Shown here in pieces: positions 2,237-38,841 of a stretch of 38,841 bases of DNA. Position 1 is the stretch's first letter; each line of letters opens with the position of its first letter. The position numbers and the translations under genes were made by a program. This DNA is from Candidatus Endomicrobiellum cubanum. GTDB lineage: Bacteria; Elusimicrobiota; Endomicrobiia; Endomicrobiales; Endomicrobiaceae. The DNA is taken from contig JAISYS010000015.1 in the NCBI GenBank assembly GCA_031269735.1, positions 1-38,841 on the forward strand, in the 5' to 3' direction. The notes below the pieces were generated by a model. That model ran no database searches. It was not told the origin of the DNA and saw only the letters and a program-made list of their open reading frames with translations.

Positions 2237-4825
2237 TCAATTATATTTTTCTTTCCAATCAAGCAGTATTTTAAAAGCTTCTAATGGGGTTAAGGCATTA
2301 ATATCTATATTACGCAATTCCTGTAGAATATCAGAATCTTCTTGAGTTAAATTATTTTCATTAACTGAAAAAAGATCTAATTGATTATTTACATCAAATT
2401 TAGAGGTTATATGGCTTGATTCTAATTTATTTAAAACTTTGTATGCCCTACTTATAACCTTATTTGGAATACCTGCTATTTTTGCAACATGTATACCATA
2501 AGATTTATCCGCGCTGCCTTTAACTATTTTATGTAAAAATATAACATCACCATTCCACTCTTTAACACCAACATTGTAGTTTACTACGCCACTAAGTGTA
2601 TTTGCTAAATCCGTAAGTTCAAAATAATGTGTTGCAAAAAGTACTTTTATACCATTATTGGCTTTTATTTTAGCATCTGCAAAAAACTCTATTATAGACC
2701 AAGCTATGGACATACCATCATACGTTGAAGTTCCTCTCCCAACTTCATCTAAAATAATTAAACTCTTTTGAGTATACTGGTTCAATATAGTTGCAGTCTC
2801 AGACATTTCTACCATAAACGTAGACTCGCCTCCTGCTAGATTGTCGCCCGCGCCTATTCTCGTAAAAATCCTATCTACCACACCAATTTTGGCTTGCGAT
2901 GCTGGGACAAAACAACCAATTTGTGCCATTATAATAATAAGCGCTGTTTGCCTTAAATATGTAGATTTACCTGCCATGTTAGGACCTGTGATAATAATTA
3001 CTTTTGAGTTTTCGTCAAAAGCAATATCATTAGAAATGAATTCGCCATTTTTTAAAATTCGTTCAACTACTGGATGTCTACCATCTTTAATATAAAGTTC
3101 TTGCGAATCTACTATTGCAGGACAAACATAATTATATTCTAAAGCGTCTTTTGCAAAACCAGAAAAAATATCTATTTCAGAAATAATCTGCGAAGTTTTT
3201 AAAATATCTCGCAAATACAAAGCAATCTCTAATCTTAAATTATTAAAAATCTTGTTTTCTAATATTAAAATTTTCTCCTGTGAATATAAAATCTTTTCTT
3301 CTAAAACCTTTAGCTCTTCAGTTATATAACGTTCTGCGTTTGCAAGTGTTTGTTTTCTAACATAATGTTTTGGAGCTAAATGTATATTAGCTTTGCTAAT
3401 TTCTATATAATAGCCAAATACCGACGTATAGCCTACTTTAAGGCTATTAATACCTGTTGATTGTTTTTCCTTAGATTCTACGTCAGATATATACATTTTG
3501 ACATCTGTAGATAATTTTCTCAATTCATCTAATTTGTCATCTACTCCATTTTTGATTACACCGCCATCTTTTAAAGATATTGGAGGTTCGTCAACAATAA
3601 CATTAAAAATTTTATCAATAATTTGATCGTTTTTTGGAATTTCAAGATGTAGGGAAGGACCAGGTACAGAATTTATAATTTCGCATACTTTATTTATTGC
3701 TTTCAAAGAATCTTTTAATGCTATTAAATCTTTAGGTCCTGCAGTTAAAGAAGAAATTCTTGCAGCTATCCTCTCTATGTCTGAAACCCTTTTAAGGTTT
3801 TCTATAACACTTTTACGTACATTAGAATTATCTATAAAAAACTTAACAATGTTTTGGCGATTTTTGATTTTTTCAATATCTAAAAGCGGGTGTATAATCC
3901 AATTGCGTAAAGTTCTTGCACCCATAACTGTTTTTGTAGAATCTACTACCCAAAGAAGAGAATTTTCAAGTTTCCCAGTATGCATACAAGACAAAATTTC
4001 AAGATTTTTTATCGCAACAGTATCTAAATACATAAAATCTGAATTTTTAATATATCTTATATTAGAAAAAATACCAACACTTTGCGGTTGAATTTCTCTT
4101 ATATAAGAAAGTAAAGCGCCGCAAACACAAAGTGCTCCTTTTTTATTTAAACTAAACTTTTTTATAGCATTAAAAGCAAATAGGTCTTCTATAGTTTTTT
4201 TTGCGCTTTCATATTTAAAAAAACTATCATCTATATTTGAAATAGGCACTTTTATATTAGAAATAAGATTTTCTGTAAACTCATTTTTGACATTGCTTGA
4301 AGATACAAGAAGCTCACTAATAGGATGCCTTGATATCTCTGTACTGATTGCTTTTAGTGTTGTTTCTAATGTAAAAAATTCGCCGGTAGATATATCAGCA
4401 AACGCAACAAACAAAGAATCATTTACATTTTCAAAGTATAGTGCCATTAAAAAATTATTTGTTTTAGAATCTAAAAGAACATCTTCTAAAACAGTCCCTG
4501 GAGTTATAACTTTAGTCACTCCTCGTTTTACTATACCTTTTGAAACTCCTGCCTCTTCAAGCTGGTCGCAAATAACTACTTTTAGACCGCTTGATATAAG
4601 TTTTCTAATATAAAAATTCACTGAATGGTGTGGCACTCCGCACATGGGAGTACCTGTACGTTTGGTTAAAACAACATCTAAAACAGGGGCTGCTTGTATC
4701 GCATCATCTCCAAACATTTCGTAAAAATCGCCTAGTCTAAAAAATAAAATCATCCCAGGATATTTAGATTTTATATCCCAATATTGTTGCATTAAAGGTG
4801 TTAATTTATCAGAAGGTTTATTTAT
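2237..4825 (-). CDS. mutS: DNA mismatch repair ATPase MutS
   Basis: MutS recognises base mismatches and small loops and starts repair by an ATP-driven clamp mechanism. The mismatch-reading FYEM motif is at 23-26 counted from the ATG at 4792, and the Walker A motif GPNMAGKS is at 603-610, followed by the DEVGRGTS Walker B region. The C-terminal domain is present, so the gene looks whole. The start needs care. The family-conserved opening LTPxMQQY continues in frame upstream of ATG 4792, which has no ribosome-binding site. Upstream in frame there is no ATG, GTG or TTG before the stop; an ATA at 4825 lies seven bases after GGAG and overlaps the end of the transglycosylase gene. I chose ATA 4825 (862 residues). 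mutL is not in the window. Confidence 0.93.
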   Translation of the reverse strand: MNKPSDKLTPLMQQYWDIKSKYPGMILFFRLGDFYEMFGDDAIQAAPVLDVVLTKRTGTPMCGVPHHSVNFYIRKLISSGLKVVICDQLEEAGVSKGIVKRGVTKVITPGTVLEDVLLDSKTNNFLMALYFENVNDSLFVAFADISTGEFFTLETTLKAISTEISRHPISELLVSSSNVKNEFTENLISNIKVPISNIDDSFFKYESAKKTIEDLFAFNAIKKFSLNKKGALCVCGALLSYIREIQPQSVGIFSNIRYIKNSDFMYLDTVAIKNLEILSCMHTGKLENSLLWVVDSTKTVMGARTLRNWIIHPLLDIEKIKNRQNIVKFFIDNSNVRKSVIENLKRVSDIERIAARISSLTAGPKDLIALKDSLKAINKVCEIINSVPGPSLHLEIPKNDQIIDKIFNVIVDEPPISLKDGGVIKNGVDDKLDELRKLSTDVKMYISDVESKEKQSTGINSLKVGYTSVFGYYIEISKANIHLAPKHYVRKQTLANAERYITEELKVLEEKILYSQEKILILENKIFNNLRLEIALYLRDILKTSQIISEIDIFSGFAKDALEYNYVCPAIVDSQELYIKDGRHPVVERILKNGEFISNDIAFDENSKVIIITGPNMAGKSTYLRQTALIIIMAQIGCFVPASQAKIGVVDRIFTRIGAGDNLAGGESTFMVEMSETATILNQYTQKSLIILDEVGRGTSTYDGMSIAWSIIEFFADAKIKANNGIKVLFATHYFELTDLANTLSGVVNYNVGVKEWNGDVIFLHKIVKGSADKSYGIHVAKIAGIPNKVISRAYKVLNKLESSHITSKFDVNNQLDLFSVNENNLTQEDSDILQELRNIDINALTPLEAFKILLDWKEKYN

Positions 4826-37771: not shown

Positions 37772-38841
37772 TTGAAAATAATGACCTTGTTAAAAACTGT
37801 TAAAAATTTTACCATTTATAGTTTATTAATTCTGTACGTATTTATTTCGTTTTCTTTTGCAAGCGAAATGACGGATTTAATAAATGTTACAAAATACCAC
37901 AAGCTAGGTTTTAAAGGGCAGGGCGTTAAATATATTGTTCTTGATGGTGACTTTAGCGGATGGTGTAATTTAAGAGCCCAAGGTGTTAATATTCAGAGTG
38001 ACGGCAATGTATCTGATAGTGATACTGGGGGGGGGGCATGGCACTTCTATGGCTGCAGCTTTTTACGAAATAGCACCTGAAGCTGAAATTTATATATCAA
38101 ACAATGGATACGCTCCCGGCCCTCTGTCCGTGCTATTCATAAATTGGTTACAAACGGAAGGCATTACTCTAGTTTCCCAATCACGAGATGAGAACAGCTA
38201 TTACCCTGGGAACTCCTTTTTAGAACCACTTACAGATCTTGAGGACTGCGTAAATGCGGGTATAACAGTTTGTACAATAGCTGGAAACAACGCTCAAAGG
38301 ACCGTAGGATTTCATTTAACAAAAGAATCTGGCAGCAATAGAATGTTGTTCCCGAATGGAACGAATCATTTAGATTTTACTTCTTCACGAAAAGATACTT
38401 CATTCCGTATAGATTTTGTAAGATCAGGCAGCCAAAGAATTCACTCAGTATATACTTGTACAATCACTAATACGCGCACTGGAACGATAGTAACAAGTAA
38501 TACGATCGTGAGGACACATTATGGTGGTGACTTACTTAGAGATACAAAAGAAGTAGGAGATAAGTATAAGTTGGAAATAACACAAGTTACCGATACAAGT
38601 GACTCCTTAGATGTTTTGATGCTAGTATCTTCTTCAGCATTTAGTTTTCCTTTTCCAGACATAAATGAAGATTATATGAAGTACAGCGCAAATAGAATAG
38701 GTCTATCTACAAAAATAATTGAAGTAGGAGCAATATTAGTTTCAGATTATAATAAAAGGGACGTGGTATCAAGTGTAAGTGGATGGGGACCTATACCAGA
38801 AGATGTTGGTGATTTAGGGAATGTAGTAGTACCTTATACAA
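37772..38841 (+). CDS. Secreted subtilisin-like (S8) protease, off-frame at a G10 tract, cut by window end
   Basis: It begins at TTG 37772, seven bases after AAGG. A signal peptide (1-30, ending SFSFA) is followed by the catalytic Asp region IVLDGDF (D58). At 38027-38036 ten G disturb the frame: the present frame reads GGGAWHF and stops at 38078-38080. With nine (or twelve) G it continues as GGGHGTSMAAAF, the S8 histidine motif, then TIAGNNAQ (the oxyanion asparagine motif), a β-rich insert of about 110 residues and VGAILVSDY...SVSGWGP. That frame is open for 268 codons to the window end, before the expected serine motif. It resembles the S8 branch with HGT followed by an APxAE segment. Local GC is visibly higher than in neighbours, a possible sign of transfer. 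Confidence 0.8.
38027..38036 (+). repeat. Homopolymer G10 tract in the protease gene
   Basis: Ten consecutive G, in an AT-rich window where I noticed no other G or C run longer than five. It sits between the Asp and His catalytic motifs of the S8 protease. Nine or twelve G would put the two parts in frame. Tracts of this kind are known slip-strand mutation sites in phase-variable genes of other bacteria. Confidence 0.85.

Follow-up and report, generated by a model that had tools for sequence, protein, structure and literature searches.

The run of ten G at positions 38027-38036 (forward strand) of the window, the whole 38,841-bp stretch of DNA analysed here, is probably a contingency (phase-variation) site of an exported S8 protease. 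The source genome belongs to Candidatus Endomicrobiellum within the Endomicrobia, symbionts of cellulose-digesting termite-gut flagellates (PMC11257099), which confirms the gut symbiont supposed in the initial annotation of this DNA. At the level of sequence comparison, a genome-wide excess of long G and C runs, together with tracts of varied site, length and phase in the protease family, makes slipped-strand phase variation more likely than a lone sequencing error or plain decay of the gene. The same comparison suggests that about a dozen slippery runs, the protease tract among them, act as switches for surface and signalling genes.

In the proposed mechanism, slipped-strand mispairing at replication would shift the G count by one or two. 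A count that is a multiple of three would yield the whole exported S8 protease, while any other count would leave a truncated product that lacks the His and Ser parts; the assembled, and probably majority, state would be off. The protease tract would belong to a poly-G set that switches other surface, glycan-modifying and signalling genes of the symbiont. We infer the slippage itself, its rate and reversibility, the variation in length between cells and the benefit, which may lie in a variable envelope or in variable proteolysis where the symbiont meets its flagellate host or the other symbionts of that host.

Tract and reading frames of the protease gene

The window corresponds to the entire contig C12 of a genome of 1.33 Mb in 60 contigs (95% complete). 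The 5' part of the protease gene (37772-38026, forward strand), starting at TTG 37772 or ATG 37781, encodes a signal peptide and an N-terminal Asp-motif segment (VKYIVLDGDFSGW); the Asp motif in this frame is VKYIVLDGD, and positions 37799-37987 align to positions 7-69 of the protease-family model. The G10 tract (38027-38036) follows, out of frame as assembled, and the frames join only at lengths divisible by three. The 3' part (38037-38840, forward strand), which reaches the contig end, contains the GHGTSMAAA His motif, the GN oxyanion region and 268 open codons. Read at ten G, the upstream frame continues into an out-of-frame tail (38037-38080, forward strand) ending WHFYGCSFLRNST and terminating at the stop 38078-38080, which gives 102 amino acids counted from TTG 37772. 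Both the placement of the run between the signal peptide with the Asp motif and HGTSMAAA, in mismatched frames, and the 102-residue product with read-through at nine or twelve G thus hold as the initial annotation had described them. An alternative start, GTG 37983, lies in the downstream frame, and its product, without signal peptide and Asp, is presumably inactive. Upstream of the protease lie mnmA, a DUF192 gene and a membrane protein of unknown type.

The most serious competing explanation takes the protease gene for a recent pseudogene of a symbiont genome under reduction: G-runs in the genus would grow through biased slippage, with no benefit, and this one would have destroyed the gene permanently. 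We regard this as unlikely, although the genus is under genome reduction (PMC11257099). A stretch of 268 stop-free codons has a chance of 1.6e-9 at the local composition, and the claim that the frame remains open stands; a recently broken gene would be equally open downstream, and therefore these codons alone do not separate decay from switching. What speaks against decay at this locus is that, the G10 aside, no second lesion occurs across 353 codons of the gene. A dN/dS ratio of ~0.2-0.5 indicates constraint in both halves; dS is near saturation, so that a recent loss of constraint would stay hidden.

Identity of the protease family

Relatives in the family are ~550 amino acids long and combine a Peptidase_S8 domain with a Por/FlgD-like C-terminal domain. 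Four of the six family members gave a PF00082 match, the best at 8.5e-15, and the family profile searched against the PDB matched subtilisins with a best E of 9.7e-8; the window pieces on their own gave no Pfam match. From the catalytic triad, the Asp (VLDGD) and His (GHGTSM) motifs are present in the window, and the Ser region, ATSPTAP in relatives, falls past the contig end. An AlphaFold2 model of one relative had a mean pLDDT of 43.5, too low for use. Three of the six relatives matched the T9SS sorting domain Por_Secre_tail (PF18962), the best at 3.3e-8; the window copy is cut before its C-terminus, and a search of the source genome remained below threshold. When SprA was searched for as a test of a T9SS, the controls themselves remained without a match.

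Because contig C12 ends inside the protease gene, the catalytic Ser region and the C-terminus lie outside the assembled sequence. A search of the source genome with the contig tail, aimed at the continuation of the gene, found no second copy. Three other contigs of the source genome (C26, C19 and C42; L246, L247 and L248) end in 116-119 identical bp encoding the protease-type C-terminal domain. The genome thus probably holds at least three genes with this domain that were collapsed by assembly, and the missing 3' end of the window protease is probably located on one of these contigs; the contig probably breaks here because the domain is repeated. The protease gene of several species is flanked by ligA and a pseudouridine synthase gene (named by eye), while the window copy is sited elsewhere.

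Long G and C runs as a separate class

The initial annotation considered the G-run out of place in AT-rich DNA, and it is indeed the sole G or C run of at least six in a window of 29% GC. Under a first-order Markov model built from 430 kb of the source genome, G or C runs of at least ten are expected 0.0016 times per window and 0.05 times per genome. The whole genome contains seven such internal runs against the 0.05 expected, and 11 internal runs of at least nine against 0.31; runs of G14 and C17 within 110 bp of contig ends (C35 and C36) were excluded from these counts as possible artefacts. In the 430-kb sample the run lengths are bimodal: those of 3-6 fit the null model, lengths 7-9 are missing, and then G10 and C11 appear. 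Long G/C runs, mostly 9-11 in length, hence form a class of their own, contrary to the base bias, and do not simply extend a continuous range of lengths. A/T runs of at least ten are rarer in the same sample than the null model expects, and this depletion argues against a general growth of runs, as decay by biased slippage would have it.

The excess also bears on the possibility of an assembly or sequencing error, in which the real tract is in frame in all cells and the gene is always on. Homopolymers are error-prone, and the G14 and C17 runs may themselves be artefacts. Nevertheless, whichever in-frame length near ten were correct, a tract of at least nine would still be there, and the seven internal tracts of at least ten, in both phases, together with tracts elsewhere in other species, cannot all be errors. 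The k119 names on contigs of related MAGs suggest short-read k-mer assembly, in which case the length would be read-supported. We therefore consider an error improbable; a misread homopolymer at one site, which the initial annotation held to be the main alternative, cannot explain tracts at other places in other species.

Other tracts in the same genome

Six of the 11 internal tracts interrupt genes whose coding sequence is open before and after the run; the frame is kept in three of these genes and lost in the other three. The in-frame cases are an autotransporter (PF03797), a radical SAM enzyme and a lipoprotein (the last named by eye); the tract is out of frame in a methyltransferase, a sensor-like protein (named by eye) and the S8 protease of the window. 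Two further tracts lie in leaders, ahead of a MoxR-type ATPase and a glycosyltransferase, and a third is found directly 5' of a ferredoxin start.

The autotransporter gene (L044, contig C7) carries two runs (2984-2992 and 3175-3182), a G8 in the leader directly ahead of the start and a G9 in frame near the N-terminus. At the ferredoxin (L047, 5695-5704) and the MoxR-type ATPase (L048, 5277-5285) the poly-G occupies the ribosome-binding position, where a change in length could tune translation; similar runs occur 5' of the starts of recA and tpiA in the related genome G001 (L276, L275). Poly-C tracts are located closely ahead of, or inside, related PAS-type histidine kinases, as a C17 in the source genome (L049, 8650-8666, contig C36) and a C10 in G004 (L254, contig C44); the C17 lies 94 bp from a contig end and is possibly an artefact.

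Tracts in related species

The initial annotation had proposed a search for further G-runs in S8-like genes, and G or C tracts exist in the same protease family of the relatives G004 and G022. Three protease paralogs of G004 share one homologous site in the signal peptide, which reads G9 in frame (contig C19), G11 out of frame (C16) and an interrupted G6AG4 (C4); the orthologous site in G046 reads GGAAGAG. In G022 (C15) the Pro linker contains a poly-C9 that disrupts the frame ahead of the C-terminal domain, and the position of the window's own tract is tract-free in the relatives found. Altogether the 16 kb of the family contain four tracts where 0.09 would be expected (P 2e-6; 8e-5 without the window copy), a density ~45x that of the carrier genomes, with the small numbers and the choice of the family via one tract-bearing member to be kept in mind. 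The enrichment of the family and the existence of a paralog with an in-frame tract are difficult to reconcile with a protease that is simply decaying.

Across the sampled species, the source included, the gene-splitting tracts number 25. Of these, 11 keep the frame and 14 break it, and in 20 the coding strand carries the G. The genes concerned include radical SAM, MBOAT, GDSL and sensor kinase genes (some named by eye). Past the tract, the 14 out-of-frame genes are still open, with 3,944 stop-free codons, which again argues against pseudogenes. Slipped-strand phase variation fits the tract lengths of 9-11, the coding-strand G and the mixture of phases, and likewise the repeated independent origin in the protease family and the frames that stay open past the tract. 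The phase-variable exported protease put forward in the initial annotation is thus supported by comparison, namely by the class of tracts in the genome, the lengths and phases in paralogs and the frames open beyond the tract.

Not all tracts of the relatives follow the pattern of a switch: they also occur in the recA and tpiA leaders (G001), in deoB and, in frame, in yidC (G057), all named by eye. A clearly decayed subtilase gene of G019 (C21) contains a G13, and 21 of the 30 sampled tracts of G057 lie in no obvious gene, both as expected if tracts accompany decay. In the same vein, the protease gene of G042 (C28) lost its C-terminal domain through an ordinary frameshift and was rejected as a tract case. 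Housekeeping leaders and decayed genes that carry tracts show that non-adaptive tract growth contributes.

Two observations concern sequence exchange. One leader (gaaaaaaatgaaaaataaagtccttttaatac) occurs three times in G009 (contigs C13, C25 and C10; L259, L261 and L265), ending in poly-C of 9, 12 and 9, respectively; in C25 the sequence after the tract differs from the other two copies, a possible rearrangement at the tract. Further, two protease paralogs of G004 (C19 and C33; L059 and L060) have near-identical middles up to the same contig-end point and unlike N-terminal parts, a pattern that suggests recombination or gene conversion between copies.

Mismatch repair

The window encodes an intact MutS with domains I-V (2237-4792, reverse strand), and the source genome is therefore no MutS-null mutator. 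This counts against the switch, although slippage at long G/C tracts is known in Neisseria that have MutS. Many tracts are present in G048, G049, G013 and G010, where a MutS domain was not detected, and equally in G057 and G045, which have MutS. We rejected a loss of mismatch repair as an explanation of the tracts, given the intact MutS of the window and a tract number in the genus that is not clearly tied to MutS.

Relation to known systems and significance

Known cases of transcriptional or ribosomal slippage involve mostly A/T runs, whereas the tract here is G, and its position and length vary within the family, unlike a programmed site. That RNA polymerase or the ribosome slips to yield some full-length protein from a permanently out-of-frame gene is accordingly very improbable, even though long homopolymers can slip at transcription, as in the Buchnera poly-A case recounted in PMC2831843. 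Buchnera provides a parallel insofar as its genome, likewise that of a symbiont and reduced, has homopolymers, in its case poly-A, within coding genes (PMC2831843); in Candidatus Endomicrobiellum, in contrast, the runs are G/C and go against the base bias, with long A/T runs depleted.

The closest counterpart of the protease is NalP (AspA) of Neisseria meningitidis, an exported subtilisin-like serine protease that is phase-variable via slippage at an intragenic G/C homopolymer (PMC5472700). Like NalP, the window protease is predicted to be exported, is subtilisin-like and carries a G homopolymer inside the coding region. NalP is a lipid-anchored autotransporter of Proteobacteria, while the family studied here, in which an autotransporter barrel was not found, starts with a signal peptide, to which the relatives add a Por/FlgD-like C-terminal domain, and belongs to flagellate-associated Elusimicrobiota. 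The poly-G phasome of Campylobacter comprises many tracts with a length peak at 9-10, G mostly on the coding strand and many tracts in ORFs (PMC6321876). The tracts described here resemble it in their lengths of 9-11 and their coding-strand G; they differ in number, about a dozen of 9-11 (longer in relatives), in the intact MutS and in the phylum, Elusimicrobiota instead of Campylobacterota.

The mechanism is thus of a known kind and the host group is new. The novelty expected in the initial annotation applies to the host group and not to a phase-variable subtilisin-like protease as such, for which NalP is the precedent. In the searchable literature, Endomicrobium was not linked with phase variation; the terms Elusimicrobi and phase variation do co-occur, one such paper naming the phylum in a table only, and Mies 2024 mentions neither homopolymers nor pseudogenes, slippage or phase.

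Weighing the evidence for switching together with the tracts in the recA and tpiA leaders, deoB, yidC and decayed genes, we hold a switch in the window protease to be the probable reading and are more reserved about an adaptive one for the genus. It is conceivable, and somewhat short of an even bet, that these reduced-genome symbionts maintain a poly-G phasome across the whole genus, by which exported proteases, autotransporters, glycan-modifying enzymes and sensors are varied, with tracts in ribosome-binding regions that could tune translation, although the flagellate host has no adaptive immunity. Phase variation by simple repeats has mostly been described from pathogens that face host immunity. 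If the finding is true, it raises the question which variable pressure flagellate symbionts with reduced genomes meet, be it recognition by the host cell, phage or competing symbionts. In addition, some genes counted as lost in the genus may in fact only be in the off state.
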